Assembly (NCBI GenBank): GCA_903865895.1
Contig: CAIPLM010000277.1
Coordinates: 1-45,786, forward strand
Direction: 5' to 3'
DNA from: an uncultured Rhodospirillales bacterium
GTDB lineage: Bacteria > Pseudomonadota > Alphaproteobacteria > Acetobacterales > Acetobacteraceae
DNA: 45,786 nt
The notes beneath the pieces are model-generated. The model did no database searches. It was not told the origin of the DNA and saw only the letters and a list, made by a program, of their open reading frames with translations. Each line of letters opens with the position of its first letter. Position 1 is the stretch's first letter. Positions 11,210 through 45,437 of the stretch are shown here, one piece after another. A program made the translations under genes and the position numbers.

Positions 11210-12079
11210 TCAGGCCGCCGCCATCTCCAGCCGTTCGGCATCTTGGGCGCGGCGCATGGTGGCGGCTTTGCGCGCATCCTCGCGCCGCTTGATCAGCTCA
11301 TAGACGATCGTGCCCGCTACCGTGACGGCGATGATGGTCACCGCCAGCGCGCTGATCGCCGGCGTTGAGCCCTGACGCACCCGCCCAGCCAGCACGGTGG
11401 TCAGCGTCTTGTCGGCGAGGATGGCGAAGGTGGTGGTGTTGTAGTTCTCGAAGCTGGAGAGGAACGCCATCACCGAGGCCGAAAGGATCGCCGGGCGCAG
11501 ATAGGGGATCAGGATATGCCGGAACACCTGCGCATTGCTCGCCCCAAGATCGAGCCCCGCCTCCTCCAGCGCATGATCGAAGCGCTGCAGGCGGGAGAGG
11601 AAGATCAGCATGCAATAGGCTGAAATGAAGGAGGACTGGCCGAGGCTGGCCAGGATGAGCCCGTCATACAGGAAGGATGCACCAGTTGCGGCAGTGAAAT
11701 CCTTCCAGAAAATCACCGTTGAAATGCCGATGATCACCCCGGGTGTCAGCACCGGCGAGACCACGACGATGTAGTAGTAGTTGCGCAGCCGCGGCAGCAC
11801 CTGATGCATCAGGATGGCGCCGGCGAGCCCGCAGGGCACCGATATCAGCACCACGAGCACGCCGATGCGCAGACTGTTCTGCAGCCCGATCATCATGTCC
11901 TTGTCGGCGAACAGGATGCGGAACCACTCCAGCGTGAACCCCTCGAACGGCATCACCGCGGGATAGGGCGAGGTGTTGAACGCGGTGATGCTCATGATCA
12001 CCAGCGGCCCGAACAAATAGGCGAAGAACACCACGAGGTAGAAACCGACCATGATGCGGTTGATCATGCGGGAGTTCAT
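11210..12079 (-). CDS. ABC transporter permease, polyamine type (PotC-like)
   Basis: A 289-residue inner-membrane permease of the spermidine/putrescine importer type, with about six hydrophobic helices. The cytoplasmic EAA loop that contacts the ATPase is at about 172-195 (EEAGLDLGASNAQVFRHI and following PYLRP). It is the last gene of a four-gene operon in the order binding protein, ATPase, permease, permease. It starts 22 bases after the previous permease. It converges with the degenerate Gfo/Idh gene, leaving a 78-base gap in which I see no clear terminator. Substrate is predicted only at the level of polyamine or related cation. Confidence 0.93.
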   Translation of the reverse strand: MNSRMINRIMVGFYLVVFFAYLFGPLVIMSITAFNTSPYPAVMPFEGFTLEWFRILFADKDMMIGLQNSLRIGVLVVLISVPCGLAGAILMHQVLPRLRNYYYIVVVSPVLTPGVIIGISTVIFWKDFTAATGASFLYDGLILASLGQSSFISAYCMLIFLSRLQRFDHALEEAGLDLGASNAQVFRHILIPYLRPAILSASVMAFLSSFENYNTTTFAILADKTLTTVLAGRVRQGSTPAISALAVTIIAVTVAGTIVYELIKRREDARKAATMRRAQDAERLEMAAA

Positions 12080-12101
12080 CGCGGGACTCCGCGTGCGATC
12101 T

Positions 12102-13118
12102 TCATCGCGTGATCTCCACCAGGCTCAGCTTGCCGATCCGCATCACCGCCAGCACGAAGGCAATACAGGTCAGCAGCAAAATCAGCGCGTAGGCCGAGCC
12201 CTGCGGCCAGTGGAAGGCCTGGTAGAACCGGTCATACACAATCGGCGTGAACCACAGCGAACGCGGCCCGCCCAGCACCAGCGGCGCCGCCAGCGCCCCC
12301 GCCGTCAGCATGAACACCAGTGTGCAGCCCGAGGCGATGCCCGGCCGCGCAAACGGCATCACCACGAAGAGATGGATATGCCACCACGGTGCACCGAGGT
12401 CCCGCGCCGCCTCGATCTGCGCCTTCGGCATCGCCTCGATGGCGTTGTAGAGCGGGAACACCATCAGCAGCATGTAGGCGTAGCCGAGCCCGGCATACAT
12501 GCCGACGTCGAGACCGAGAAAATCGATCGGCTCCGCCACCAGCCCGCCGGCCAGCAGCAGCTTGTTGATCAACCCGGAACTCGCAAACATCACCCGAAAC
12601 GCGAAGGCGCGCAGGATCTCGTTCACCCAGTACGGCGTGATCAGCAGCAGCAGCAGAAACCGCACCCGTGCCGCCCCCGCCACCTGCGCCATATAGAAGG
12701 CGAGCGGGTAGCACAGCGCGAAATTGGCGAACGTCACCACGATGGAGGCGACGATGGTCTGCCAGAACGCCCGCAAATGCACGGTGTTCCAATTGGCCGA
12801 GCTGGTCGGGCTCCCGTAGAGGAAATAGTGGTAGTTCTGTAGCGAATAGACGTCCCGCGGGCCGAAGGTCTGCGAGGGCGGCAGTTTCGGGCGGAACGAC
12901 AGCTCGATCATGAACAGTTGCGGCAGCACGATCATGAACACCGCCCAGGCGAGCACGGCGATCAGCAGAAACAGCCCGATCGGCACGCCGTTGCGTTGGA
13001 AATAGCCGGGCCCCTGCACCAGGCCGAGCCGCCGCTCGCGCCGGGCGATCCACAGGAACATCGCCAGCACCACCACCGGCAATGCGAGCACGAAAGGATG
13101 GCCGACCGATGCCAGCAT
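12102..13118 (-). CDS. ABC transporter permease, polyamine type (PotB-like)
   Basis: A 338-residue permease and partner of the PotC-like protein. It has a longer N terminus than typical PotB: an extra hydrophobic segment at about 8-25 and an arginine-rich loop (ARRERR) before the usual first helix at about 46-68. The EAA loop is at 236-259 (IEAARDLGAPWWHIHL and following). The gene begins three bases after the ATPase stop, consistent with coupled translation. It forms the transmembrane channel with the next gene product. Confidence 0.93.
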   Translation of the reverse strand: MLASVGHPFVLALPVVVLAMFLWIARRERRLGLVQGPGYFQRNGVPIGLFLLIAVLAWAVFMIVLPQLFMIELSFRPKLPPSQTFGPRDVYSLQNYHYFLYGSPTSSANWNTVHLRAFWQTIVASIVVTFANFALCYPLAFYMAQVAGAARVRFLLLLLITPYWVNEILRAFAFRVMFASSGLINKLLLAGGLVAEPIDFLGLDVGMYAGLGYAYMLLMVFPLYNAIEAMPKAQIEAARDLGAPWWHIHLFVVMPFARPGIASGCTLVFMLTAGALAAPLVLGGPRSLWFTPIVYDRFYQAFHWPQGSAYALILLLTCIAFVLAVMRIGKLSLVEITR

Positions 13119-13121
13119 GGC

Positions 13122-14186
13122 TCAGCCCGGCGGCAGCACGATGGCGTCGGCGGCATCAAAGCCGAGCCCGACGCGCGCGCCGATCGGCGGCGCCGAGCGC
13201 GTCTCGCCGCCGCCGAGCAACACCAGCAAATGACTGCCGTCATCGGCCCGCAGACCGACATGGGTGAGATTTCCCTCGTAGGCCACCTCGGTCGTCGCGG
13301 CCGTGCAGGCATTCTCGGTGCTGCCGATATGCAGCGCCTCCGGCCGCACGAACAGCACCGCCGGTGCCCCCGCTGTGAGGCCAAGCGGATTGGTGCCGCG
13401 GAAGGCGCCGAGCGGGGTTTCCACCACCGCGAACCCCTCGCCCACTGACGCGACCTTGCCGCGCATCGCGTTGTTCTCGCCGACGAACCCGGCCACGAAG
13501 GCGGTGCGCGGCGCGGTATAGACGCTGCGCCCATCGCCGATCTGCTCGATCCGCCCTGCATTCATCACCGCGATGCGGTCGGACATGGTCAGGGCCTCGC
13601 CCTGGTCATGCGTGATGTAAATGAAGGTGATGCCGACGCGGCGCTGAATGGCGCGCAGCTCATTGCGCATGTGCTGGCGCAGCTTGAGATCGAGCGCCGA
13701 CAGCGGTTCATCGAGCAGCAACACCTGCGGCTCTACCGCGAGCGCACGGGCGATGGCGACGCGCTGGCGCTGGCCGCCGGACAACTCATCGACCTTCTTG
13801 CCCCCCTGGTCGCCGAGCGCGACGAGGTTCAGCAACTCCTCGGCCTTTTTCATGCGGGCGGATTTGCTGGCACCGCGCACCCGCAGCCCATAGGCCACAT
13901 TCTCCGCCACCGTCATCATCGGGAACAGCGCGAGCGACTGGAAAATCAGTGCCGTCGGCCGCTTATTGGCGCCGATGCCGCGCATATCCCGCCCACCGAT
14001 CCGCACCTGCCCAGATGAGGGCTCGATGAACCCGGATATGGTGCGCAGGATCGTGGTCTTGCCGCAGCCGGAAGGGCCGAGGAAGGAGAAGAATTCCCCT
14101 CCCTCGATCTTCAGCGAGGCATTCTCCACCGCGGTGAAGGTGCCGAACCGCACCGTCACCGCCTCGAGTTCGACGTCCGCCGTCAT
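13122..14186 (-). CDS. ABC transporter ATPase, polyamine type (PotA-like)
   Basis: A 354-residue ATP-binding subunit that powers the polyamine-type importer. Walker A is GPSGCGKT (37-44), the Q-loop segment is IFQSLALFPMM, the signature is LSGGQ (135-139), Walker B is LLLDE (156-160), and the H-loop is YITHDQGEAL. The C-terminal ~120 residues form the regulatory TOBE-type region found in PotA/MalK ATPases. The start at 14186 was chosen because the upstream extension is arginine-rich shadow sequence overlapping the binding-protein gene; no strong ribosome-binding site precedes it. Confidence 0.95.
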   Translation of the reverse strand: MTADVELEAVTVRFGTFTAVENASLKIEGGEFFSFLGPSGCGKTTILRTISGFIEPSSGQVRIGGRDMRGIGANKRPTALIFQSLALFPMMTVAENVAYGLRVRGASKSARMKKAEELLNLVALGDQGGKKVDELSGGQRQRVAIARALAVEPQVLLLDEPLSALDLKLRQHMRNELRAIQRRVGITFIYITHDQGEALTMSDRIAVMNAGRIEQIGDGRSVYTAPRTAFVAGFVGENNAMRGKVASVGEGFAVVETPLGAFRGTNPLGLTAGAPAVLFVRPEALHIGSTENACTAATTEVAYEGNLTHVGLRADDGSHLLVLLGGGETRSAPPIGARVGLGFDAADAIVLPPG

Positions 14187-14220
14187 GACCGCGGACGTCC
14201 GTTCGTGATGCCGGGCAACC

Positions 14221-15393
14221 TCACGCCGCCTTGAACTTCTCGGCGTACTGGTTGCGCAGTTCGACAAGCCACGACGACTCCGACGGGCGCGGCCAGATCT
14301 TCGAGAGCGCGTCGTCCGGATAGGCCTCGGAGAAGATCTTCTTCGCCGCCGGCGACAGCAGCGCGTCGGCGCCTTTGGCGACCGGGTTGTAGCCCGAGCC
14401 CTCGGCAACCAGCGCCGAGCCTTCGGCGGAATGCACGAACTTCAGCCACTCATAGGCCTGTTCGACGTTCTTGGCGGTCTTCGGCATCGACCAGCCGTCG
14501 AGCCAGGTGATGGCGCCTTCCTGCGGGGCCATGTAGCTGACCGGCTTGCCCTGCTTCTTCAGCGAGATCGGCGGGCCGTCCCAGGTCTGGCCGATGACGA
14601 CGCCGTTATCGAGCAGGCCCGACTTGGTGTTGTCCGCGCTGTCCCAGAACTGCTTGATCCAGGACTTGTGGGAGATCGCGAAGGGCAGGATCTGGTCGTA
14701 GATCTTCTTGAAGTTCTCTTCGCTCTTGAACGCGTCGAGCATGCGGTTGCTCGGCAGCTTGCCGGTCGCGTCCATCCACAGGCCGATGCCGAGCATCAGC
14801 GAATGCGGGCGGCCCTGCACCTTGCCCTTGTACTTGTCTTCCCACATCGTGCCGTAGGAGAGGGTCTTGTAGTCGAGCGTGGTGAGGTCGGTGCGCCAGG
14901 AAATTGCCTCGGAACCCCAGCAATGCGGCACGTGGTAGAGCTTGCCCTCCCAGGTCCACAAATCGGCCGAGGTCTTGAGGAAGGCCGGCAGAATGGTGTC
15001 GGGCGTCATCCGCTTCATATCGAGCGGCTGCAGCACTTCGAGGTCCTTATAGGCCGGCGCCAGATTGGCGGTGGGCTGGCACAGATCGAACCCGCCGCCG
15101 CCGGTGGCCTGCAGTTTGTTGATCTGCTCCTCGTTCTGGCTGAAAGGGGTGGTGTTGACCTTGATGCCCGTCTTCTTCTCGAAAGTCGGGATCACCGGGT
15201 TGGGCAGCTCGTCGTCCCAGTTCAGCACGTTGAGCACGCCGGAGGAGGACAGCGCGTCCTTCACCACCCAGGGGCCCATCGCGGCAACGGTGCCGATGGC
15301 GGCGCTGCGGCGCAGCAGGATGCGGCGGGTGAAGCCGCGCGCGGCGCGCATGGTCGCCTCGGCGGAGGTTTTGGAGTCAGTCGGCTTGGTCAT
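14221..15393 (-). CDS. Periplasmic binding protein, polyamine type (PotD/PotF-like)
   Basis: A 390-residue extracellular solute-binding protein, first gene of the importer operon. The N terminus has a basic stretch with two arginine pairs, TRRILLRRSAAIG, followed by a hydrophobic segment, so Tat-dependent export is possible. The mature protein opens with VLNVLNWDDELPNPVIPTFE, the strand seen in PotD/PotF-type proteins, and GGGGFDLCQPT. AGGAGA precedes the chosen ATG. It supplies the ligand to the PotB/PotC-like permeases encoded downstream. An inverted-repeat cluster lies 70-95 bases upstream. Confidence 0.9.
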   Translation of the reverse strand: MTKPTDSKTSAEATMRAARGFTRRILLRRSAAIGTVAAMGPWVVKDALSSSGVLNVLNWDDELPNPVIPTFEKKTGIKVNTTPFSQNEEQINKLQATGGGGFDLCQPTANLAPAYKDLEVLQPLDMKRMTPDTILPAFLKTSADLWTWEGKLYHVPHCWGSEAISWRTDLTTLDYKTLSYGTMWEDKYKGKVQGRPHSLMLGIGLWMDATGKLPSNRMLDAFKSEENFKKIYDQILPFAISHKSWIKQFWDSADNTKSGLLDNGVVIGQTWDGPPISLKKQGKPVSYMAPQEGAITWLDGWSMPKTAKNVEQAYEWLKFVHSAEGSALVAEGSGYNPVAKGADALLSPAAKKIFSEAYPDDALSKIWPRPSESSWLVELRNQYAEKFKAA

Positions 15394-15461
15394 CGGCCAG
15401 GTCTCCTGTTGTTGACGGTGGCCATGTCCTAGCAGGAATCGGGCCGCTCCTGCGTCATGAA

Positions 15462-15486
15462 GAAATCGTGACATGATTTCGAAATC
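15462..15486. promoter_or_regulatory. Candidate operator: three GAAATC half-sites
   Basis: GAAATC occurs at 15462-15467 and 15481-15486, with its reverse complement GATTTC at 15475-15480. The last two abut as a perfect 12-base palindrome, GATTTCGAAATC. The cluster lies 69-93 bases upstream of the binding-protein start, where a promoter for the importer operon is expected. A regulator is not identified in the window. Confidence 0.45.
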
Positions 15487-15535: not shown

Positions 15536-16285
15536 TTATTTAGCGCCGCGCGGCACGCCATTGAGCACCGCATCGAAGCGTGCCCCGAGATCGGCCTCAT
15601 ACACCTGATAACGCGGGATCGCGAAGCGCGGCGCCCCGGCGAGCGCGGCCCGTCCGCCAAGCGCGAAGGCCGCCCGGTAGCCGGCCGCCGCCGCCGCCGC
15701 CTCCAGCTCCGGATCATGGATGCCATAGGGCCAGGCCAGCAGGTCCTGCGCCCCGCCGAGCCGCGCCGCCAGCACCGCGCGCGGCGCGGTCAATTCCCGG
15801 GCGACGAATTGCGCGTAATCCTCCCGGGTGCGCCGCGCCTGCTCCGTGGGGAAATGCGGGTGGCTCACCGTGTGCGGCTCACAATCCACCAGCCCCGAGG
15901 CGATCATCTCGGCGAGTTCCTCCCACCGCAAATAGCTGCCCTGGCCGAGTCCGGGCGGGTTGAGGAACAGCGTGGCGTGAAAGCCGTGCCGCTTCAGGAT
16001 GGGGAACATCTCGGTATAAACCGAGCGATGCCCGTCATCCGCCGTGATCGCAACCGCGCGCGCCGGCAGCCCTTCGCCCGCGACCACCGCGCGCAGTGCC
16101 ACCACGGGAATGCCCCGCTCGGCGATGCGGGCCATCTGGGCGGCGAACACCGGCGTGCTCACCGTCGTCGCCCCCGGCGAACCATGCGGGTTGAACCGGT
16201 GATAGGTGAGGATCGACACGCTGGCCGTCTCCGCCCAAGCGGGCGGAGCGAGCAGCAGTGCCAGCACGAAAATGACGAGGCGCAT
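15536..16285 (-). CDS. Exported polysaccharide deacetylase (NodB-type)
   Basis: A 249-residue carbohydrate esterase of the NodB fold, which removes acetyl groups from amino sugars in polysaccharides. A cleavable signal peptide is likely (hydrophobic core 4-14, cleavage after P-A-W-A at residue 18). Motif 1 is TADDG, placing the catalytic base and metal aspartate at D83/D84, and motif 2 is HTVSH, with metal histidines H138 and H142. It is one of the short forms that also contain ILTYHRF at the start of the mature domain. AAGGGA precedes the ATG. Divergent from the PLP-enzyme gene with 49 bases between starts. Role in exopolysaccharide modification is inferred. Confidence 0.9.
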   Translation of the reverse strand: MRLVIFVLALLLAPPAWAETASVSILTYHRFNPHGSPGATTVSTPVFAAQMARIAERGIPVVALRAVVAGEGLPARAVAITADDGHRSVYTEMFPILKRHGFHATLFLNPPGLGQGSYLRWEELAEMIASGLVDCEPHTVSHPHFPTEQARRTREDYAQFVARELTAPRAVLAARLGGAQDLLAWPYGIHDPELEAAAAAAGYRAAFALGGRAALAGAPRFAIPRYQVYEADLGARFDAVLNGVPRGAK

Positions 16286-16334: not shown

Positions 16335-17501
16335 ATGACATCGCACCCCGACACCTCCACCTGGTCCCCCCGCACCCTCGCCGCCCAGGCGCTTGGCGCC
16401 ATCGACGAGCCGAGCCGCGCCCTGGTGCCGCCCATCCATGTCGCGACCACCTTCATCCGTGACCCCGATAACGCCTATAGCTCCGGCAATATCTACGGCC
16501 GGCCAGACAACCTCACCGTGCGCGAGGCCGAGGCCATCATCGCCACCCTCGAAGGTGCCGCCGCCGCGATGGTGCTGGGCTCCGGCATGTCAGCCGCCAC
16601 CGCCGTATTCCTCTCCCTGAAGCCGGGCGACCACGTCATCGCGCCCCAGGTGATGTACTGGGGCCTGCGCCACTGGCTGCTCCATGAAGCAACCGATTGG
16701 GGCCTGCGCATCGAGCTGATCGACACCACTGATCTCGATGCCCTAAAGGCCGCCGTGCGCCCGGGCGAGACTAAGCTGATCTGGCTCGAAACGCCGTCCA
16801 ACCCGATGTGGACCATCACCGACATCGCCGCGGTCGCCGCCATCGCCCATGCAGCCGGCGCCCGCGTCGCGGTCGATTCCACCTGCGCCACTCCGCTGCT
16901 CACCCGCCCGCTCGAACTCGGCGCCGATATCGTGATGCATTCGGCCACCAAATACCTCAACGGCCATTCCGACGTCATCGCCGGCGCCCTCGCCACCCGC
17001 GTGCAGGACGAATTCTGGACCCGCATCCGCCGCACCCGCTCCATCCTCGGCCAGATCCTCGGCCCGTTCGAGGCCTATATGCTGATCCGCGGCATGCGCA
17101 CCCTCCCGCTGCGGGTGAAGGCGGCTTGCGACAACGCGATGGAGCTGGCGCTGCGCCTGTCCAACCACGCCGGCGTCGCCGAAGTGCTCTACCCCGGCCT
17201 CCCCGGCCATGCCGGCCATGACGTCGCGCGCCGGCAGATGACGGGCGGTTTCGGCGGCATGCTCTCCATCCGCGTGCGCGGCGGCGAGGCCAAAGCGATC
17301 GCCACCGCCGCCCGGGTGACGCTGTGGAAGCGCGCCACCTCGCTCGGGGGCGTCGAAAGCCTGATCGAGCATCGCGCTTCCATCGAAGGCGCCGGCTCCC
17401 CCTGCCCGCCCGACCTGCTGCGCCTCTCGGCGGGGATCGAGGACCCCGAAGACCTCTATCGCGACATCGCCCAGGCACTCACCGCGGCCCAAGCGGGCTA
17501 A
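16335..17501 (+). CDS. Cys/Met-metabolism PLP enzyme (cystathionine beta-lyase-like)
   Basis: A 388-residue pyridoxal-phosphate enzyme of the cystathionine lyase/synthase family. Key segments: PPIHVATTF near residue 32, the family Y-(S)-R region as YGRPDNLTVREAE, GSGMSAATAVFLSL around the cofactor phosphate, DSTCATPLLTRPLELGAD, and the Schiff-base lysine K206 in HSATKYLNGHSDV. The best guess is cystathionine beta-lyase or a close relative acting in methionine metabolism; gamma-lyase or desulfhydrase activity cannot be excluded. No clear ribosome-binding site precedes the ATG. Its stop codon touches the stop of the convergent binding-protein gene with no base between them. Confidence 0.9.
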   Translation: MTSHPDTSTWSPRTLAAQALGAIDEPSRALVPPIHVATTFIRDPDNAYSSGNIYGRPDNLTVREAEAIIATLEGAAAAMVLGSGMSAATAVFLSLKPGDHVIAPQVMYWGLRHWLLHEATDWGLRIELIDTTDLDALKAAVRPGETKLIWLETPSNPMWTITDIAAVAAIAHAAGARVAVDSTCATPLLTRPLELGADIVMHSATKYLNGHSDVIAGALATRVQDEFWTRIRRTRSILGQILGPFEAYMLIRGMRTLPLRVKAACDNAMELALRLSNHAGVAEVLYPGLPGHAGHDVARRQMTGGFGGMLSIRVRGGEAKAIATAARVTLWKRATSLGGVESLIEHRASIEGAGSPCPPDLLRLSAGIEDPEDLYRDIAQALTAAQAG

Positions 17502-19058
17502 TCAGCCCCGCCAGTTCCGCGGCGAGAAATCAAGGAAGAACGAGGGCGCTGCCCGCCAGGGCAGCTCCTTGCGCTTGGCCACGAAGGCCGCGTTCTGGTG
17601 CAGCACGACGTAAGCGGGGTCCTCCCGCTCGCAGATCTGCAGCATGCGCGCGAAGATCTGCCGCCGCTCCGCCATGTCGGTGCCCGCCTCCAGCGCGCCT
17701 GACAGCCGGTTCATCTCGTCGTTCGACCACTCGCCATTTGCCCGCTGCGCCCCGTTCGGCCCGTGCTGGTTGACGATGGAGGACACCGGATCATCGAAGG
17801 TCGGCGAGTTCGACCAGTCGCGCACCCCGCGCGGCCCGGCCTTGTCGAGCACTTGCGGCCAGTTCTCCTTCACCTCCAGCACCAGGTTCAGCCCAACCGC
17901 GCGGCACAATTCGACGATGATCTGCGCGGTGGCGATCTCGGCGGTGTAGTAGTCGTTCCGCGCGCGATAGGCGATCGCCTCGCCCTTGTAACCGGCCGCC
18001 TTCAGCAACTCGCGGGCACGCGCGGGATCATAGGCCGGCACCGACCATCCCGGCACGAACATCTCCCCGTAGAACTCCCATTGCAGCCCCGGCGGCACCC
18101 GGGCCCGCCCGGCCCACAACGCATCGACGATCGCCTGCCCGTCGATCGCATGCGCGATGGCAAGCCGCACCCGCGGGTCAACCAGCGCGGGGTGCTGCTT
18201 ATCGAAGGCGAGAATACGATGATTGGGCACCAGCCCGCCCTGCACCTCAAGCCCGCGGGATTTTTCAATGCCGGCGATCTGGTCCGGCGGGATATCGCAG
18301 GCGAACTGCACCTCGCCCGATTGCAGCGCGGCCACGCGGGCGGCGGTCTCGGGGATTTCGAGCAAACGCAGCGATTTCACCGGCGGCCGCCCGCCCCAGT
18401 ATTCGTCATGCGCGTCGAGGATGAGTGCCGCATCAGGCTTGAACTCGCGCAATTTATAGGGGCCGCTGCCCACCGGCGCATTGCGGTTCGCTTGCCAGGT
18501 CCCGCGCTCCCGCCAGGCCCGCGCCGCGACAATCTGGCTGCCCCCGGCCGAAAGCCGCCCCTCCAATGTGAGATCGACCGTGCGGTTGACGAAGCGCACG
18601 GTGAGCGGATCGACAATCTCCACCCGCTCCAGCGCCGGAAAATAGCGCCGCGCCACCGCCCGCACATCGGCCGGCAGTGCCTCGTCGCGCGTCCGCTCGG
18701 CGCCAAAGGAAAAGGCGACGTCCTCGGCGCTCAGCGTATCGCCGTTATGCAGCTTCACCCCCGCCCGCAGCGTGAGCTCCACCGTCCGCCCATCGGTCCG
18801 CCGCCACGCGGTGGCCAGCCCCGGCACGCGCTCGAGCCCCGCCTGCTGGTTGCGCCCGATCAGCGTCTCCAGGATCGAACCCGTCCAGCGCTCCGAGGCG
18901 TTGGAGGATTGCTCGCGAAACACGTCGAGCACCCCGGAATTGGCGATCTTCGCCACCGCGACCGATATCGCCGGGCGGGTATCAGCCTGGGCGATGGCAA
19001 ATCGCGGCAACATCGCCGCCGAGGCGGTCAGCGCGGCGCGGCGGGGGAGGGCGGGCAT
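17502..19058 (-). CDS. Oligopeptide-type (family 5) periplasmic binding protein
   Basis: A 518-residue extracellular solute-binding protein of the DppA/OppA family, which captures peptides, nickel or related ligands. The N terminus MPALPRRAALTASAAMLPRF with IAQA is a signal peptide, possibly Tat-dependent. Family segments include WTGSILETLIGR, LRAGVKLHNGDTLSAEDVAFSF and NAPVGSGPYKLREF. It starts four bases after the aapM-like permease, so it is the last gene of an amino-acid permease operon, exactly where the ATPase gene aapP would be expected. Family-5 proteins normally work with Dpp/Opp permeases, none of which are in the window. The pairing is therefore unusual. Confidence 0.9.
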   Translation of the reverse strand: MPALPRRAALTASAAMLPRFAIAQADTRPAISVAVAKIANSGVLDVFREQSSNASERWTGSILETLIGRNQQAGLERVPGLATAWRRTDGRTVELTLRAGVKLHNGDTLSAEDVAFSFGAERTRDEALPADVRAVARRYFPALERVEIVDPLTVRFVNRTVDLTLEGRLSAGGSQIVAARAWRERGTWQANRNAPVGSGPYKLREFKPDAALILDAHDEYWGGRPPVKSLRLLEIPETAARVAALQSGEVQFACDIPPDQIAGIEKSRGLEVQGGLVPNHRILAFDKQHPALVDPRVRLAIAHAIDGQAIVDALWAGRARVPPGLQWEFYGEMFVPGWSVPAYDPARARELLKAAGYKGEAIAYRARNDYYTAEIATAQIIVELCRAVGLNLVLEVKENWPQVLDKAGPRGVRDWSNSPTFDDPVSSIVNQHGPNGAQRANGEWSNDEMNRLSGALEAGTDMAERRQIFARMLQICEREDPAYVVLHQNAAFVAKRKELPWRAAPSFFLDFSPRNWRG

Positions 19059-19062
19059 GGGC

Positions 19063-20112
19063 TCAGCGCTTCGCCGCGCCGGGCGCGGTGGAGAAGTGCT
19101 TCTCCAGCACCGATCCCCCAAGCGAAATCACCAGGCAGGAGAAAAAGAACACGAAGGCCGCGAACACGTAGCCCTCGGCGGCCAGCCCGGTCCAGGCGGT
19201 GTCCTTGAGCGATTGGCTGACCACGCCCATCAGGTCGAACAACCCGACGATGGAGACCAGCGTGGTGTCCTTGAACAGGTCCACCGCGATGTTGATGATC
19301 CCGGGGATCGAGAGCCGCAGCGCCTGCGGCAGCACGATCAGCAGGTTCACCTGCCCCTCATGCATGCCAAGCGCCCGCGCCGCCTCGGATTGCCCGGACT
19401 CCACTCCCTGCAACCCGCCACGGATGGTCTCGGCCATATAGGCGCCGGTGAAGATCGTCATCACGATCAGCGCGCGCACGAGGTTGTCGACGTTCACCCC
19501 ATTGGGCAGGAACAACGGCAGTAGCACCAGCCCCATGAACAGCACCGCCAGCAACGGCACCCCGCGCCAGAATTCGATCAGCACGGTCGAGAGGGTGCGG
19601 ATCACCGGCCATTGCGAACGCCGCCCGAAGGCCAGCGCGATGCCAATGGGGATGGAGCCACCGAGCGCGACGAAGGAGATCACCACGTTCAGCATCAGCC
19701 CACCCCAATCATTGGTGGGCACGGCGCGCAGGCCGAAAATACCGCCGATCAGCAGGATGGCGTCGGCGATCGGCACCAGCACCATCAGCCCGAGCAACCA
19801 CCAGCCGCGCCGCCGCTGCGAGAACAGCGCACCGACGCCGAACACAACCAGCAGAGCGAGGCCGAGATGCACGCGCCAGCGCTCGCCTTCGGGGTAGACG
19901 CCGTAGAAGAACAGCGCGAAGCGCGCCTTGATGAAGGCCCAGCAGGCGCCGGTATCGGCCGCACTACACGCGGCACGGTTCACCGCGTCCCACACCGCGT
20001 GGGTGAAGGCCCAGGAGAGGAAGGGCGGCACCACCCAGGCGAACAGCCCGATCATCAGCAGCGAGATGATCGCGTTGCCGCGGGAGCCGAACAGGGCGCG
20101 CAGGATTTTCAT
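19063..20112 (-). CDS. aapM: Amino-acid ABC transporter permease (AapM/BztC-like)
   Basis: A 349-residue permease of the general L-amino-acid (Aap/Bzt) type. It has the long N-terminal region of AapM proteins, with a periplasmic Cys-containing loop (NRAACSAADTGACWAFI), then the histidine/glutamate-permease core. The EAA loop is ARALGMHEGQVNLLIVLPQA. The start is the ATG at 20112, which overlaps the stop of aapQ as ATGA. It should pair with the preceding aapQ product and receive amino acids from the aapJ product. No ATPase gene follows; instead comes a family-5 binding protein. Confidence 0.92.
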   Translation of the reverse strand: MKILRALFGSRGNAIISLLMIGLFAWVVPPFLSWAFTHAVWDAVNRAACSAADTGACWAFIKARFALFFYGVYPEGERWRVHLGLALLVVFGVGALFSQRRRGWWLLGLMVLVPIADAILLIGGIFGLRAVPTNDWGGLMLNVVISFVALGGSIPIGIALAFGRRSQWPVIRTLSTVLIEFWRGVPLLAVLFMGLVLLPLFLPNGVNVDNLVRALIVMTIFTGAYMAETIRGGLQGVESGQSEAARALGMHEGQVNLLIVLPQALRLSIPGIINIAVDLFKDTTLVSIVGLFDLMGVVSQSLKDTAWTGLAAEGYVFAAFVFFFSCLVISLGGSVLEKHFSTAPGAAKR

Positions 20113-21212
20113 CGGCCTTGCAGCGCCATTTTGCGGTTCCAATGGTTCATCGCCAGCGAGGTGATGAGGTTCACCGCGAGGAATACCCCGAGCACGATGG
20201 TCATCACCTCGATGGCCCGGCCGGACTGGTTCAGCACGGTGCGCGCCATGATCTGCAAAATCTCGGGGTAGGCGATCGCGGCGCCCAGCGTGGTGGATTT
20301 GATGATGTTGAGATACTGGCTGGTCAGCGGCGGGATCAGGATACGCAGCGCCTGCGGCAGGATCACCAGCGCCATCGTCCGTCCGGCCGAGAGCCCAAGC
20401 GAGCGCGCCGCCTCGGTCTGCCCCTTATGGATGCCGAGAATGGCGGCGCGCACGTTCTCGGCGATGAAGGCGCTGGTGTAGATCGACACACCCAGCACGA
20501 TCGCCAGCACCTCCGGCGGGATGCGCACGCCGCCGGCGAAATTGAAGCCCTTCAGCGCCGGCGGGTCCCATGTCGCGGTGAAACCGGCGATGACCAGGCC
20601 GATGATCAGGATCGGCGGCAGCACCAGCAGCCGCGGCAACAGCACCCCAACCCGCCGCCACAGCACGGCGGCGAGGGCAACGCCAATAAGCGTGAGCCCG
20701 GTGATCCAATCCCACGCCGTGCCAGAGGCAGCGGGCACGTAGAGGCCGCGCACGTTGAGGAACAGCCCGGCGCCGAGATTATAGCTCTGCCGCAGCTGCG
20801 GCAGAGCCTGCAGCACGGCGAAATAGATGAACACGATTTGCAGCAGCTGCGGCGTGTTGCGGATGATCTCCACCAGCGTGCGCGCGGTGCCGGCGGCCAG
20901 CAAATTGCCGGAGAGCCGCATCAACGCCAGCGTTAGCCCCAGCGCCGAGGACACCACGATGGAAATCGCCGCCGCGAACAGCGTGTTGACGCCGGAGACC
21001 CACAGCGCACGGCCATAGGGGAAGTTCACGTCCCATTCGACGAGATGGAACGGGATATCGAAGCCGGCTTTGCGCCAGAGGAAATCGAACCCGAAGGACA
21101 GCCCGCGGATTGCGAGGTTGTCCGACACATTGCGGGCGAAGAAGAGCAGGATGGCGGCGGTGGCCACCGCCACCACCGCCTGCCAGGTCAGCGCCTTCTG
21201 TCGTGTCGTCAA
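20109..21212 (-). CDS. aapQ: Amino-acid ABC transporter permease (AapQ/BztB-like)
   Basis: A 367-residue permease of the Aap/Bzt type. The first ~70 residues contain NLAIRGLSFGFDFLWRKAGFD, the segment typical of AapQ, and the core follows with RNTPQLLQIVFIYFAVLQ and the EAA loop ARSLGLSAGRTMALVILPQA. It appears to use TTG as start: in this frame no ATG or GTG occurs between the upstream aapJ stop and this codon, and AGGGG lies about nine bases before it. The gene begins 30 bases after aapJ and overlaps aapM by four bases. It forms the membrane channel with AapM. Confidence 0.92.
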   Translation of the reverse strand: MTTRQKALTWQAVVAVATAAILLFFARNVSDNLAIRGLSFGFDFLWRKAGFDIPFHLVEWDVNFPYGRALWVSGVNTLFAAAISIVVSSALGLTLALMRLSGNLLAAGTARTLVEIIRNTPQLLQIVFIYFAVLQALPQLRQSYNLGAGLFLNVRGLYVPAASGTAWDWITGLTLIGVALAAVLWRRVGVLLPRLLVLPPILIIGLVIAGFTATWDPPALKGFNFAGGVRIPPEVLAIVLGVSIYTSAFIAENVRAAILGIHKGQTEAARSLGLSAGRTMALVILPQALRILIPPLTSQYLNIIKSTTLGAAIAYPEILQIMARTVLNQSGRAIEVMTIVLGVFLAVNLITSLAMNHWNRKMALQGR

Positions 21213-21242
21213 GGCGCTGACCCCTGTGTCATCAACAGCCGA

Positions 21243-22301
21243 TCAGCGGATCGGCAGCGGGTAGTGCAGGCCACCCTTGGTGTAGAGGTTGTTCTGGCCA
21301 CGCGGCAGGTTGAGCGCCTTGGGGCCGAAGTGACGCTCGTACATCTCGCCGTAGTTGCCCACGGTCTTGATGGCGCGGAACGCCCAGGCTTCCTCGAGGC
21401 CGAGGGCCTTGCCGGTCTCACCCTCGACGCCGAGCAGGCGCAGGATGAACGGGTCCTTGGAGGCCTTCATCTGGTCGGCATTGGCCTGCGTCACGCCGAA
21501 TTCCTCGGCGGACTTGAGCGCGTTGTCGAGCCAGAACAGGATCTTCTGCCAGCGCGGATCGCCCGAGCGGGTGTGGATGCCGAGCGGCTCCTTGGAGATC
21601 AGCTCGGGCATGACGAACCAGTCATCCGGCTTCTTCAGGGTCGAACGCATGCCGGCCAGCGAGCCGGTATCGTCGGTGTAGCCGTCGCAGCGGCCGGCTT
21701 CCATGGCGGCGATCGCCTCTTCCGGCTTCTCGAACAGCAGCGAGCCGATCTTGGCGCCGGTCGAGCGGGCGAAGTCGGCGATGTTGAGTTCGAGCGTCGC
21801 GCCGGTCACCATGCAGATGGTGGCGCCCTGGAGTTCGGCGGCCTTGGTGACGCCGATCGACTTGCGGACCAGGAAGCCCTGCCCGGCGTAGAAGTTCACC
21901 GCAACCTCTTCGAGGCCGAGCACGGTGGAGCGCGTGAAGGTCAGCGTCGAATCGCGGACCAGCATGTCGATCTCGCCGGACTGCAGCACGGTGAAGCGTG
22001 CGGCGGCGGTGGTGCCGGTGTACTTCACCTTGTCGGGGTCACCGAGCACGGCGGCGGCCACGGCGCGGCAGTAATCAATGTCGATGCCGTGCCAAACGCC
22101 CTTGTTGTCCTGGAAGGCGAAGCCGGGAACCCCGGTGTCGATGCCGCAATTCAGCATCCCGCGCTTCTTGATGGCGTCAACGGTCGGCCCCGGCGGGGGA
22201 GCCACCTGCGCCTGCGCGACAACGCTCGTGAAGAGCATCGCGGCGCCCGCGGCCAATGCGTAACGGCCGGCACGCATGATGCGCGCTGGAAGTGAGGTCA
22301 T
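21243..22301 (-). CDS. aapJ: Amino-acid periplasmic binding protein (AapJ/BztA-like)
   Basis: A 352-residue family-3 solute-binding protein of the general L-amino-acid transporter. A signal peptide covers about residues 1-31 (basic start, hydrophobic AAGAAMLFTSVVA, then Q-A-Q). The mature part has the AapJ-type strand LNCGIDTGVPGFAFQDNKG, the ligand-binding GIDIDYCRAVAAAVLGD, and VRDSTLTFTRST. It lies first in an operon with aapQ and aapM. AGGGAGA precedes the ATG. It is divergent from the aldehyde dehydrogenase gene. It is the only AapJ-type protein in the window and might also serve the second Aap locus at 43076-45786. Confidence 0.93.
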   Translation of the reverse strand: MTSLPARIMRAGRYALAAGAAMLFTSVVAQAQVAPPPGPTVDAIKKRGMLNCGIDTGVPGFAFQDNKGVWHGIDIDYCRAVAAAVLGDPDKVKYTGTTAAARFTVLQSGEIDMLVRDSTLTFTRSTVLGLEEVAVNFYAGQGFLVRKSIGVTKAAELQGATICMVTGATLELNIADFARSTGAKIGSLLFEKPEEAIAAMEAGRCDGYTDDTGSLAGMRSTLKKPDDWFVMPELISKEPLGIHTRSGDPRWQKILFWLDNALKSAEEFGVTQANADQMKASKDPFILRLLGVEGETGKALGLEEAWAFRAIKTVGNYGEMYERHFGPKALNLPRGQNNLYTKGGLHYPLPIR

Positions 22302-22385
22302 GCCAGTCTCCCTGTTCTTTGGTTTTACCCGCGGTCACGCTGACTCAATACCGGGCGCGATGCAACCATGCGTAACCGGCAATGC

Positions 22386-22400
22386 TGCAAAGTTTTTGCA
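22386..22400. promoter_or_regulatory. Candidate operator: TGCAAA-N3-TTTGCA
   Basis: A perfect inverted repeat with three-base spacer lies in the 219-base divergent region between aapJ (minus) and the aldehyde dehydrogenase (plus). It is 85 bases from aapJ and 121 bases from the dehydrogenase start, so one regulator could act on both. The rest of the gap shows no gene. Confidence 0.4.
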
Positions 22401-22520
22401 CTGCACCACGCAGATGTCCCGGGCACGCACCGGCCTCGACCCGGCGGCGGCAAAAGTCTATGGTGCGCCGTGTTGAATTGGCTATAGCGCCTACTCGCCC
22501 GACCAGTTGAGGATTCCCCG

Positions 22521-23954
22521 ATGTATCAAAATGTCTCCCTCCATATCGATGGTGCCTGGGCCCCGGCCGCCGCCGGCCGCACGCTCACCGTGCTCAACCC
22601 CGCGACCTCCGAGCCGCTCGGCACCGTCGCCCACGCCGAACGCGCCGACCTCGACCGTGCGCTGGAAGCCGCCGAGCGCGGTTTCGCGGTGTGGAAGAAG
22701 GTCTCGGCCTATGAGCGCAGCAAGGTGATGCGCAAGGCCGCCGGCCTTATCCGTGAACGCACGGAGGCGATCGCCCGGCTGATGACGATGGAGCAGGGTA
22801 AGCCGGTCGCCGAGGCCAAGGGCGAGCTTGGCGTCGCCGCCGATGTGATCGAGTGGTTCGCCGAGGAGGGCCGCCGCGCCTATGGCCGCGTCATCCCCGC
22901 CCGCGCCGAGGGCGTCTATCAGCTCGTCATCAAGGAGCCGGTCGGCGTGGTCGCCGCCTTCACGCCGTGGAACTTCCCGATCAACCAGGCCGTGCGCAAG
23001 ATTTCCGCGGCACTCGCCGCCGGCTGCGCGGTGATCCTCAAAGGCCCGGAGGAAACCCCGGCCTCCTGCGCCGAATTGGTGCGCGCCTATGTCGATGCCG
23101 GGCTGCCGGCCGGCGTGGTGCAGCTGGTCTACGGCATTCCCGCGGAAATCAGCGAGTATCTGATCCCGCACCCCACCATCAAGAAGATCAGCTTCACCGG
23201 CTCCACCGCCGTCGGCAAGCAGCTCTCGGCGCTTGCCGGGCTGCACATGAAGCGGGTGACGATGGAGCTCGGCGGGCATGCCCCGGCGATCGTGTTCGAT
23301 GACGCCGATGTCGATACCGCCTCGAAAATCCTCGCCGCCAACAAGTTCCGCAATGCCGGCCAGGTCTGCGTCTCGCCGACGCGCTTCCTGGTACAGGAGA
23401 AGGTCTACGAGGAATTCGTCGCCAAGTTCACCGCCATCGCCGCAGCGCTGAAGGTGGGCGACGGGCTTGACCCGACCTCCACCATGGGCCCGCTCGCCAA
23501 CCCCCGCCGCGTCTCCGCCATGGAAGGCTTCGTGGCCGATGCGGTGCAGAAAGGCGCCACGGTGAAGACCGGCGGCAAGCGTATCGGCAACAAGGGCAAT
23601 TTCTTCGAACCGACCGTGCTGACCGAGCTCAACCTCTCCATGCGCGTCATGAACGAGGAGCCCTTCGGCCCGCTGGCGCTGATGGTGCCGTTCAAGGGCT
23701 TCGAGGACGTGGTGGCGGAAGCCAACCGCCTGCCTTACGGCCTCGCCTCCTACGCCTACACCCGCTCGGCCAAGACGGCGAATGCCATCGCGGCGCAGGT
23801 GGAAGCCGGCATGATGTCGATCAACCACCACGGGCTCGCGTTGCCGGAAGTGCCGTTCGGCGGCATCAAGGACAGCGGCTACGGCTCCGAGGGCGGGCTT
23901 GAGGCGATGGAAGCCTACCTCAACACCAAGTTCGTCACCCAGGCCGGTCTGTAA
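22521..23954 (+). CDS. gabD: NAD(P)-dependent succinate-semialdehyde dehydrogenase-like
   Basis: A 477-residue aldehyde dehydrogenase, closest in pattern to GabD-type succinate-semialdehyde dehydrogenases, which finish GABA breakdown. Visible motifs: [14 protein letters not shown] (cofactor pocket), [13 protein letters not shown] (glycine motif), the general-base glutamate E249 in TMELGGHAP, the nucleophile C283 in [12 protein letters not shown], and [14 protein letters not shown] lies before the ATG. It is divergent from the aapJ-Q-M genes, which fits a joint role in taking up and degrading amino acids, though the exact aldehyde is not provable here. It converges with nagA. Confidence 0.9.
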
Positions 23955-26714: not shown

Positions 26715-26800
26715 TTACTGGAGGCAGGGATAGCGCAGCAATGTGCCGATCCAATGATGGACGAGTGTCGTGCTCCGGTGCGGCGATTTTGGAGGTTGGT

Positions 26801-27589
26801 ATGACGGGTTTAACCAAGGCACTTTCCTTCCTCGCTGGTGCTGCGGCGTTGGTCGCCGTCTCTGCGGGCGATGCGCAGGCGGCCCTTCAGAGCTATATCG
26901 GCCAAGGGTCCAGCACGACGGCCGGTAGCGGTACCGCCATTTCGTCCTGGTTCCAGAACTCCTGGGCAACCCGCACGACACTTGCGCCCGCCGGAGTGAC
27001 CGGAGCCGGCACGGCCACCGTCACCGTCCCTCTCGGGACGTCACCTGGTGTGAGCCTCGCGTCCAGCCAAACGGGCGGCGCGACGACGATTTCTCTCGGC
27101 ACGCCTGGCGCGCTGAAGAACGTGCCAACAGGGTCGGTGTTCGTCGACAGCAGCGGCAACACTGCGATCACGATCGGCAACTTCTCTCCGCTGGTGAGTT
27201 CCTTCGGATTTTTCCTTGAGAATGCAAAGGCTAACTCGGCGCAGACCGGGAACGTGACGATCACTCTGACTGACTCGACTGGCGCGACCTCGCAGATCCA
27301 GGTTACGTCCGCCGGTGTCGTGACCGCCAATACCCAGTCGACCGCGCTTGCTGGCGGTGTCACACTTTTCAGCGGCCCGGCCGCGCTGGCCGATCCTTCG
27401 CAGAACGCGCAGTTTGTCGGCTTCACGGGCTCGAACCCGATCAGCTCGATCACTATCGCCGCGACACCGGGCGTGGCGTGGGAACTAGGTAATTTTTATG
27501 AGGGCCGGGTGCCTGAGCCCGCGACGATGGCGCTGCTCGGGGCCGGTCTGGCCGGGCTCGGTCTGGTCCGTCGCCGCCGCAAGGCTTGA
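26801..27589 (+). CDS. PEP-CTERM sorting domain protein
   Basis: A 262-residue secreted protein. It has a signal peptide (SFLAGAAALVAVSA then GDAQA), a Ser/Thr/Gly-rich beta-type body with SSFGFFLENAKANSAQTGNV, and the C-terminal sorting tail: VPEPATM at 237-243, a hydrophobic helix and RRRRKA. Exosortase recognises this tail and the protein is linked to exopolysaccharide or the surface; no exosortase is in the window. GGAGG lies six bases before the ATG. Regulation by sigma-54 is suggested by the upstream -24/-12 element. A strong terminator follows. The function of the body is unknown. Confidence 0.92.
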   Translation: MTGLTKALSFLAGAAALVAVSAGDAQAALQSYIGQGSSTTAGSGTAISSWFQNSWATRTTLAPAGVTGAGTATVTVPLGTSPGVSLASSQTGGATTISLGTPGALKNVPTGSVFVDSSGNTAITIGNFSPLVSSFGFFLENAKANSAQTGNVTITLTDSTGATSQIQVTSAGVVTANTQSTALAGGVTLFSGPAALADPSQNAQFVGFTGSNPISSITIAATPGVAWELGNFYEGRVPEPATMALLGAGLAGLGLVRRRRKA

Positions 27590-34791: not shown

Positions 34792-36264
34792 ATGCTCGAT
34801 ATCACCGTCGCCAAATCCGCGCTGCCCAAGTCGGGCGCGCTCGTGCTGCTGCTGGAGGAAGGGGCCGTGCTCGATACTGGGCTGGCCCAGGCCGCGGATG
34901 AGGCGACCGGTGGCGCCATCGGGCGTGCCCTCGCGGTCGCGGAGTTCAAGGGCCGCAAGGGGCAGAGCACGATGGTGCTGGCCCCCGGCGCTGGGCTGAC
35001 GCGCGTGCTCGCAGTCGGCCTCGGCAAGCTCGCCGACGCGGCGGACCGGGATCTCGAGGCCGCCGGCGGTGCCATCACCGCCGCCCTCGCCAAAGAGGCC
35101 TCCGCCGCCGTTGCCGCCGCCGGGCTGAGCCCCGCCCAGGCCGCCTCCGTCGCGCTCGGCGCCGTGCTGCGCGCCTATCGCTTCGATCGCTACCGCACCA
35201 AGGAAAAGGCCGAGGACAAGCCGAAGCTCGCCAAGCTGACCCTGCTGGCCGACAGCGCCGCCAAGGTGAAGAGCGCCTGGGAGCCGCTGAAGGGCGTGGC
35301 CGAGGGCGTCTACTTCGCGCGGGACCTGGTCTCCGAGCCGCCCAATGTGCTGAACCCCGCGGAGATGGCGCGGCGCATCGAGGGGCTGAACAAGATCGGC
35401 CTCAAGATCGAGACCTTCGGGCCCAAGGAAATGAAGAAGCTCGGCTTCGGCGCGCTGATGGGCGTGGCGCAAGGCAGCTCCAATGAGCCGCGCATGGTGG
35501 TGATGCACTGGAACGGCGCGCCGGCCGACAAGACGGCGCCGCTCTGCTTCGTCGGCAAGGGCGTCACCTTCGACACCGGGGGCATTTCGCTGAAGCCCGC
35601 CGGCGGCATGGAAGACATGAAGTGGGACATGGGTGGCTCCGGCACCGTCGTCGGCCTCATGGCCGCGCTCGCTGGGCGCAAGGCGAAGGTCAACGCGATT
35701 GGGCTGGTCGGCCTGGTCGAGAACATGCCGGACGGCAACGCCCAGCGCCCCGGTGACGTGGTGACCACCTATTCCGGCCAGACTGTCGAGGTGATCAACA
35801 CCGACGCCGAGGGCCGCCTCGTGCTGGCCGACGTGTTGTGGTACGCGCAGGAGAAGTACAAGCCGCGCTTCATGATCGATCTCGCCACCCTCACTGGCGC
35901 CATGATGGTCGCCCTCGGCCACGAGACGGCCGGCTATTTCGCCAATGACGACGCGCTGTCCGACCAGCTCTTCGCCGCCGGCAAGACCACTGGCGAGGCG
36001 GTGTGGCGCATGCCGCTCGGCGATGCCTATGACAAGCTCATCAAGTCCGACATCGCCGACATGAAGAACATCGGCGGCCGTCCGGGCGGGGCCATCACGG
36101 CGGCGCAGTTCATCCAGCGTTTCGTCAATGATGTGCCGTGGATCCATATCGACATCGCCGGCGTCGCTTGGTCCGGCAAGGACGCGCCGACCATTCCGAA
36201 GGGGGCGACGGCGTTCGGTGTTCGGTTGCTGGATCGCATGGTAGCCGATAATTACGAGAAGTAA
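34792..36264 (+). CDS. pepA: Leucyl aminopeptidase (M17)
   Basis: A 490-residue cytosolic metallopeptidase that removes N-terminal residues and in some bacteria also binds DNA. Active-site segments are GKGVTFDTGGISLKP (K256 in the zinc site), the M17 signature NTDAEGRLVL from N336, and MIDLATLTGAMMVALG. The N-terminal domain (to about 160) is typical. CAGGAG lies before the chosen ATG at 34792; a longer frame upstream has no such site. pepA followed by holC is a conserved gene pair in proteobacteria. A repeat element fills the 145 bases between them here. Confidence 0.97.
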   Translation: MLDITVAKSALPKSGALVLLLEEGAVLDTGLAQAADEATGGAIGRALAVAEFKGRKGQSTMVLAPGAGLTRVLAVGLGKLADAADRDLEAAGGAITAALAKEASAAVAAAGLSPAQAASVALGAVLRAYRFDRYRTKEKAEDKPKLAKLTLLADSAAKVKSAWEPLKGVAEGVYFARDLVSEPPNVLNPAEMARRIEGLNKIGLKIETFGPKEMKKLGFGALMGVAQGSSNEPRMVVMHWNGAPADKTAPLCFVGKGVTFDTGGISLKPAGGMEDMKWDMGGSGTVVGLMAALAGRKAKVNAIGLVGLVENMPDGNAQRPGDVVTTYSGQTVEVINTDAEGRLVLADVLWYAQEKYKPRFMIDLATLTGAMMVALGHETAGYFANDDALSDQLFAAGKTTGEAVWRMPLGDAYDKLIKSDIADMKNIGGRPGGAITAAQFIQRFVNDVPWIHIDIAGVAWSGKDAPTIPKGATAFGVRLLDRMVADNYEK

Positions 36265-36271
36265 GGAAGGT

Positions 36272-36391
36272 CTTCTTTTTGAAAAACGAAGCAAAAACTT
36301 TCTATCCGTTCGCTTCGCACCCTCCCGGGAGAGCGCGGAGCACAATGGACAAAAGTTTTTTGGTTCTTTTTTTCAAAAAAGAACCGCTTCC
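36272..36391. repeat. Intergenic T/A-tract inverted-repeat element, copy 2
   Basis: A near-complete element. Left hairpin: CTTCTTTTT (36272-36280) against AAAAA-c-GAAG (36282-36291). The centre holds a 10-base palindrome CTCCCGGGAG. Right hairpin: GGTTCTTTTTT (36362-36372) against AAAAAAGAACC (36375-36385). It aligns with the element at 1-94, which lacks only its left end. It lies between pepA and holC and could terminate in both directions. Confidence 0.8.
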
Positions 36392-36409
36392 TTTTCCCCG
36401 GTAAGCACC

Positions 36410-41756: not shown

Positions 41757-41763
41757 TAGCCGG

Positions 41764-42972: not shown

Positions 42973-43012
42973 TTCGTCACACGGAGTCGACAGCGGCTTG
43001 CTTCGCATGGCA

Positions 43013-43028
43013 GCATCGCTGACGATGC
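43013..43028. other. Short hairpin before the second Aap locus
   Basis: GCATCG (43013-43018) and CGATGC (43023-43028) flank a four-base loop in the 103-base gap after the reductase gene. No T-run follows. The gap holds no room for a binding-protein gene. Confidence 0.3.
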
Positions 43029-43075
43029 ATGCGCGCTGATCGGCCGCACACAGAACCAAGGGAACTCGCCTGCCA

Positions 43076-44284: not shown

Positions 44285-44288
44285 GACG

Positions 44289-45425: not shown

Positions 45426-45437
45426 AGGAACCCCATC

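Follow-up and report, generated by a model that had tools for sequence, protein, structure and literature searches.

A motor-less aapJQM cassette in Acetobacteraceae and a probable detached binding protein of a DppBCDF importer behind it

Which importer does a family-5 binding protein serve when its gene stands in the slot of the ATPase gene of an amino-acid permease operon, and what powers the permeases of that operon? The question is raised by contig CAIPLM010000277.1 (C277) of an uncultured Rhodospirillales bacterium of the family Acetobacteraceae (assembly GCA_903865895.1, a draft genome of 5.69 Mb in 392 contigs, here G000). The whole contig, 45,786 nucleotides long, is the window analysed here. 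It carries an aapJ-aapQ-aapM cassette trailed by a family-5 binding protein gene that we call SBP5c. We consider it likely, on the evidence below, that SBP5c is a binding protein that has become detached from a DppBCDF importer and that the permease pair AapQM uses the ATPase AapP in trans.

The genes concerned are the following.
21243 to 22301, minus strand: aapJ-like family-3 binding protein of the motor-less cassette, 352 residues (SBP_bac_3, 50.9 bits)
20109 to 21212, minus strand: aapQ-like permease, 367 residues, EAA coupling loop intact (BPD_transp_1, 39.9 bits)
19063 to 20112, minus strand: aapM-like permease, 349 residues, EAA coupling loop intact (BPD_transp_1, 73.5 bits, scored on the longer open reading frame 19063-20142)
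17502 to 19058, minus strand: SBP5c, family-5 binding protein, 518 residues (SBP_bac_5, PF00496, 217.6 bits against a cut-off of 32.4)

A sequence-only reading of this DNA had described the three aap genes, the family-5 gene four bases on and the missing ATPase, and all of this was confirmed. Both permeases exceed the cut-off of the HEQRo-type model TIGR01726, the start of aapM overlaps the stop of aapQ as ATGA, and the four bases GCCC separate the aapM stop from the SBP5c ATG at 19058. The aapJ product scores 163 bits, below the cut-off, with TIGR01096, and its closest solved chain is 4z9n (348 bits). No ATPase gene was found in the slot after aapM or within 3 kb downstream in the window. AapJQMP is the general amino-acid permease of Rhizobium leguminosarum (PMC2978685). 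The cassette resembles it in its J-Q-M order, its family-3 binding protein and its two HEQRo-type permeases; it differs in that the operon has no aapP and holds a family-5 binding protein in its place.

This arrangement is not peculiar to one assembly. A search with AapQ in 299 sampled genomes of the family identified 29, among them the window's own, that encode a copy at 48-100% identity; all further matches listed lie at 40-48%, and the group is split by rank, not by a tree. Fifteen loci are close relatives (AapQ at 67% identity or more, plus the damaged locus of genome G212), and five of these place SBP5c directly behind aapM: the window, G111, G020, G208 and G004, the last from another genus. 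The genome is a draft, and its 392 contigs might make one suspect that misassembly created the aapM-SBP5c junction. Given the identical order in the genomes of four further species, we reject an assembly artefact and regard its probability as negligible. The adjacency is by itself unremarkable, since the genome has 105 SBP_bac_5 matches in its 5.69 Mb.

In relatives, SBP5c has a home operon. The G109 genome encodes PehA-SBP5a-SBP5b-DppD-DppF-SBP5c-DppB-DppC with the SBP5c ortholog inside, and the general form in relatives is (PehA)-SBP5(s)-DppD-DppF-SBP5c-DppB-DppC. We scanned the best 80 of 101 relatives' loci in named genomes, some of whose records are the same genomes as those given G handles here. 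By best label, SBP5c occurs in 21 of these 80 loci, and in 16 of the 21 it lies between DppF and DppB. The other five comprise one SBP5c followed by DppB on a short contig, three that follow aapM with no dpp genes present, and one isolated on a contig of 7 kb. Among the remaining 59 loci, 57 have DppD downstream. PehA was detected at 50% identity or more in 43 of the best 80 loci. With its family-5 binding protein, DppB/C-type permeases and two DppD/F-type ATPases, the operon resembles DppABCDF; it differs in often having several binding proteins per transporter and often a hydrolase gene.

The two systems also meet directly. In G067 a single run of genes in one direction reads aapJ-aapQ-aapM-SBP5a-SBP5b-DppD-DppF-SBP5c-DppB-DppC. 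Among the named genomes, that of the cultured Limobrevibacterium gyesilva RN2-1 (L171) likewise shows aapJQM and, behind it, a dpp operon that includes SBP5c. Eight of the 15 close loci are contiguous with the dpp operon, five have the aapM-SBP5c order, and two (G165, the nearest species, and G052) have neither. In the window's own genome, contig C340 begins with SBP5a and a piece of SBP5b, and contig C385 with part of DppD followed by DppF, DppB and DppC; there DppF directly adjoins DppB, SBP5c being absent from its usual place, and this DppB is 83% identical to the G109 ortholog. A dpp operon without SBP5c is likewise present in G020, G111 and G004. A clear candidate partner permease pair for SBP5c exists elsewhere in the genome. 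A scan of positions 17300-22700 found no promoter, between aapM and SBP5c or elsewhere (0 against 0.6 expected), though such a scan has little power in high-GC alphaproteobacteria.

The phylogeny of the binding proteins is consistent with this origin. We built a tree of 56 SBP5 rows from 31 loci, dropping pieces shorter than 300 residues or below 40% identity. SBP5c and two basal rows (G010 and G105) form a clade of 15 with support of 100/99; of its 13 inner rows, eight come from dpp operons and five from behind aapM. The four SBP5c rows of the window's genus group together at 100/100. The G004 copy falls with those that G089 and G052 carry inside their dpp operons (95/98), and the aapM-SBP5c order may therefore have arisen twice; alternatively, these topologies may reflect retention of an older aapM-SBP5c order. 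Several deeper forks of the tree are unresolved. The two basal genes (G010, L102, 9310-10842; G105, L073, 1468-2988) have no dpp or aap genes in the available stretch, which for L073 is a contig of 4.2 kb.

These placements suggest a course of events in which SBP5c stayed, or landed, behind aapM in the window's genus and in a single species of a second genus, where the Dpp genes now lie elsewhere. SBP5c would now probably be co-transcribed with aapJQM, to judge from its position, and would still act as one of several binding proteins that dock on the DppBC/DppDF importer.

A natural deletion bears on the same point. In G165, the aapJ, aapQ and aapM genes are 95-97% identical to those of the window (aapQ 96-97%), and behind aapM come first a palindromic repeat and next the gene for a pyridoxal phosphate (PLP) enzyme; SBP5c and the gabD-like gene that flanks aapJ in the window are both gone from the site. 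No SBP5c was found elsewhere in G165, where the best SBP5 match (62%) is of the SBP5a type. For AapM, the comparison with G165 gave a nonsynonymous rate (dN) of 0.029 and a synonymous rate (dS) of 0.343. Conservation of aapJQM without SBP5c argues against an obligate pairing. The sequence-only reading had offered two possibilities, a new pairing of the family-5 protein with the Aap permeases or service to distant Dpp/Opp permeases with co-transcription only. The new pairing is not supported, and the second possibility fares better on three counts: the usual place of SBP5c between DppF and DppB, the orthologous DppD-DppF-DppB-DppC genes elsewhere in the own genome, and the persistence of aapJQM in G165 after SBP5c was lost.

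The repeat at the G165 site is about 131 bp long. One copy lies in the window at 36264-36394, and the copy that occupies the SBP5c site in G165 spans C369:37094-37224. We counted 79-108 matches per genome in five genomes of the genus, counts in which the palindrome matches both strands and 40 candidates per genome were scored; the copy number is in any case high.

SBP5c had been called DppA/OppA-like, which is right at the level of the family. Its closest solved relative is another protein, AccA, which is no peptide binder. AccA binds agrocinopine and agrocin 84, the former a sugar phosphodiester (PDB 4RA1, 4ZE8 and others; PMC4526662). In a comparison with all PDB chains, a profile built from ten orthologs scored 290 bits with AccA and 132 with DppA, and the single SBP5c sequence 220 and 94 bits; SBP5c and AccA are about 28-29% identical. 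A structure model from a 47-row alignment (the window and 46 relatives, namely 41 of the best 80 named loci and five other SBP5 pieces) reached a mean predicted local distance difference test score (pLDDT) of 91.5; a 10-row model (pLDDT 60.7) was not used. In the fold comparison, AccA chains rank first to eleventh (best Z 44.6, 1.9 A over 483 residues), ahead of the first non-AccA chain (Z 38.1) and DppA 1dpp (Z 37.0). No NCBIfam equivalog cut-off of family 5 was reached (DppA_dipep 82.4 bits against 1005, OppA 26.2 against 947). We rejected SBP5c as a peptide binder because AccA is closer by sequence, pocket and fold.

The pocket residues named in PMC4526662 were mapped by hand along a sequence alignment, with an offset that fits 12 named sites and puts Glu504 on a Trp. 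Five residues that contact the phosphate or OH1 are kept: AccA N54, N284, Y375, Y376 and S419 correspond to SBP5c N53, N279, Y370, Y371 and S416. None of the five varies in the 47-row alignment, and SBP5a and SBP5b have them too. Of 31 distinct other SBP5 reading frames of the own genome, taken from the best 30 of the 105 matched loci, 11 keep none, 17 keep one and three keep two of the five. AccA Tyr145 corresponds to Tyr139 in the window and to His in some orthologs. By this alignment, the phosphate-contacting part of the pocket is conserved and the sugar end largely is not. The PehA proteins match a phosphoric/sulfuric ester hydrolase model with a cut-off of 900 bits, at 903.8 bits in G109 and, just below the cut-off, 897.4 bits in the own genome. 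The home operon couples binding proteins and a transporter with a phosphoester hydrolase, as the acc genes pair AccA with the phosphodiesterase AccF. Here the hydrolase is PehA, of the alkaline-phosphatase superfamily, found in relatives, and no Ti plasmid setting was seen. The conserved phosphate pocket together with PehA makes a phosphoester or phosphodiester the best guess for the ligand; SBP5c probably binds such a compound and not a peptide.

What drives AapQM? The sequence-only reading had stated that the permeases lack a motor. This is right for the operon and wrong for the cell, as a second aap set at the right end of the same window (43076-45786), which that reading had missed, includes an aapP gene that starts 23 kb off.
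43076 to 44284, plus strand: aapQ2, permease of the second aap set, 40% identical to aapQ (BPD_transp_1, 50.5 bits)
44289 to 45425, plus strand: aapM2, permease of the second aap set, 40% identical to aapM (BPD_transp_1, 76.4 bits)
45438 to 45786, plus strand: aapP ATPase, truncated by the contig end, first 116 residues (ABC_tran, 72.5 bits; GlnQ model, 121.6 bits)

The GlnQ score is below the cut-off because the contig end cuts the gene; over 111 residues the fragment shares 89% identity with the G067 AapP. Between AapQ and the AapQ2 encoded alongside it in this genome, identity is only about 40%. No aapJ precedes the second set (region 41764-45786), the gene before aapQ2 being a ferredoxin reductase gene, and the own AapJ2 (49% identity) is encoded on C389:2085-3092. 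The second set likewise consists of Q, M and P without an adjacent aapJ in G165, and is complete as J-Q-M-P in G067 and G004.

The motor-less aapJQM cassette is a lineage trait and recurs in the family. We checked 28 of the 29 loci for an ATPase behind aapM with a motif scan and a profile search, leaving out G212, where aapM was not found. Seven of these 28 have less than 1 kb of contig downstream, and the 21 checkable ones have at least 1.8 kb. In 20 of the 21, no ATPase gene lies within 3 kb behind aapM or up to the contig end, which comes at 1.8 kb in G020 and 2.7 kb in G108. Outside the window, none of the other 20 checkable loci has an AapP-type ATPase near aapM. Farther downstream are DppD/F ATPases in six loci, an ATPase at 4.6 kb in the window (polyamine-type) and one at 3.4 kb in G165. 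A region of G384, which belongs to the window's aapJQM group, likewise has no ATPase behind aapM. A second group of aapJQM-type loci from other genera of the family (L261-L263, L265 and L266) is closer to AapQ2/AapM2, and no ATPase gene occurs within 6 kb behind aapM in any of the five loci examined. The motif scan and profile search also led us to reject the idea that an ATPase in the operon was merely overlooked.

AapP itself is seldom missing. Of the 29 genomes, 26 encode a complete copy at 82% identity or more and two (G000 and G148) a partial one. The EAA coupling motif is present in all 18 rows of AapQ, AapM, AapQ2 and AapM2 from up to seven genomes, including all 14 AapQ and AapM rows of the window's clade (seven genomes). 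AapQM has intact EAA loops and is likely driven in trans by the AapP that the second aap set encodes. More generally, the simplest reading of the motor-less loci is that AapP would serve more than one permease pair. Multitask ATPases had been reported only for CUT1 sugar importers according to PMC7658222, and FhuC is a shared ATPase for iron-compound importers (PMC10147376). A limited literature search on orphan and shared amino-acid ATPases, orphan binding proteins and the gene context of PehA yielded nothing direct, and within it we met no report of a shared ATPase for amino-acid importers. The likeness to MsmX/MsmK (CUT1 sugar importers) and FhuC lies in permease sets without a motor gene and an ATPase presumed to come from elsewhere; the present case concerns a polar amino-acid importer, its presumed motor comes from a paralogous set, and the sharing is predicted.

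Other arrangements would account for some of these data. If SBP5c docked on AapQM, one permease pair would serve two structural classes of binding protein. The four-base spacing and shared orientation of aapM and SBP5c fit this idea, as do the order kept in five genomes and the other SBP5 genes behind aapM in G067 and G033. Against it stand the 16 of 21 named loci with SBP5c between DppF and DppB, the G165 locus, and the eight more distant aapJQM loci with readable downstream sequence, none of which has a co-directional SBP5 behind aapM (G050 has a 25%-identical one that is convergent). Moreover, binding proteins of cluster C and of family 3 use different permease types. We judge such docking very unlikely. 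Still lower is our estimate that DppD/DppF of the neighbouring operon, and not AapP, are the motor of AapQM. The contiguity of the dpp operon with aapJQM in eight of 15 close loci would allow it; however, dpp genes are downstream in none of the same eight more distant loci, DppD and DppF have the Dpp-type oligo_HPY C-terminal region, and AapP is nearly always encoded elsewhere in the genome.

More weight, though not much, goes to the idea that SBP5c, perhaps with aapJQM, is a functionless relic in the course of being lost. The joint absence of SBP5c and gabD in G165 would fit, as would the G212 locus (C5, L152, 7689-9510), a decaying copy with aapJ in pieces with a stop, a short aapQ and no aapM found. 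The reading frame of SBP5c is nonetheless intact, with an NG86 dN/dS of 0.13-0.25 in five comparisons; those of aapJ, aapQ and aapM are intact too, with 0.07-0.41 in 18 comparisons, all values below 1, and the pocket residues are invariant. We thus hold a relic to be unlikely and retain the reading of a detached DppBCDF binding protein and an AapQM pair that uses AapP in trans.

Several observations weigh against that reading. Of the eight dpp operons that adjoin aapJQM, that of G067 alone holds SBP5c, and the other seven genomes are without SBP5c; a joint ancestral locus therefore rests on G067 and on the in-operon copies of genomes without a neighbouring aapJQM. Various kinds of SBP5 gene follow aapM in the window's genus and G004, in G067 and in G033, which could hint at a functional link. 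Two of the five aapM-SBP5c copies are short of sequence: in G208 the contig breaks inside SBP5c, with the remainder on another contig, and in G020 about 240 bases of contig follow SBP5c. On the side of the motor, G194 has a 505-residue double-domain ATPase 1.1 kb behind aapM. It directly follows a Bmp/PnrA-type binding protein and is thus probably part of another importer (C176, L156, 3745-6305). No AapP above 50% identity was found in G167, a draft of 1080 contigs and 88% completeness. On the side of the ligand, the OH1 anchor Glu510 of AccA is replaced by Phe507 and Met372 by Arg367, the gate residues Trp178 and Trp423 are Gly172 and Thr420, and Thr430 and Glu434 correspond to Ser427 and Gln431. 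The ligand is thus not simply an agrocinopine.

The cassette is flanked on either side as follows.
16335 to 17501, plus strand: Cys/Met-metabolism PLP enzyme (Cys_Met_Meta_PP, 346 bits), convergent with SBP5c and abutting it, outside the system
22521 to 23954, plus strand: gabD-like aldehyde dehydrogenase (Aldedh, 535 bits; SSADH subfamily, 496 bits, below cut-off), divergent from aapJ

Many loci of the close clade have a gabD-like gene divergent from aapJ, and such a gene adjoins the dpp operon in several genomes without aapJQM. This neighbourhood suggests a C4 amino acid such as gamma-aminobutyric acid (GABA) as the Aap substrate. Elsewhere in the window, a polyamine-type ATP-binding cassette cluster at 11210-15474 encodes a PotD-like binding protein, an ATPase and two BPD_transp_1 permeases, beside a polysaccharide deacetylase gene (15536-16285). 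Immediately ahead of the second aap set, a cytochrome P450 gene adjoins the ferredoxin reductase gene (40497-42972). An open reading frame at 26741-27589 ends in a C-terminal VPEPATMALLGAGLAGLGLVRRRR, which we take to resemble a PEP-CTERM sorting signal.

Tentatively, and with considerable doubt, the composite locus may be a two-importer module of a single pathway. AccA-like proteins and DppBCDF would import small amines or amino acids in the form of phosphodiesters or related esters, PehA would hydrolyse these esters, AapJQM would import the free amino compound, GabD would oxidise the semialdehyde, and one AapP would power two AapQM pairs. If this is true, the polar amino-acid family would have a multitask ATPase in the AapP of the module.

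With these results, the supposed new pairing of binding protein and permease falls away and three testable points take its place. The locus cautions against pairing binding proteins with adjacent permeases by position. The operon of alpha- and betaproteobacteria from which SBP5c would derive matches Dpp/Opp-type models best, yet its AccA-like proteins and the PehA gene near so many of its copies suggest uptake of phosphoesters rather than peptides. The recurrent motor-less aapJQM cassette, in turn, predicts that AapP is shared, a role with precedents only among sugar and iron-compound importers in the two papers cited (PMC7658222, PMC10147376).

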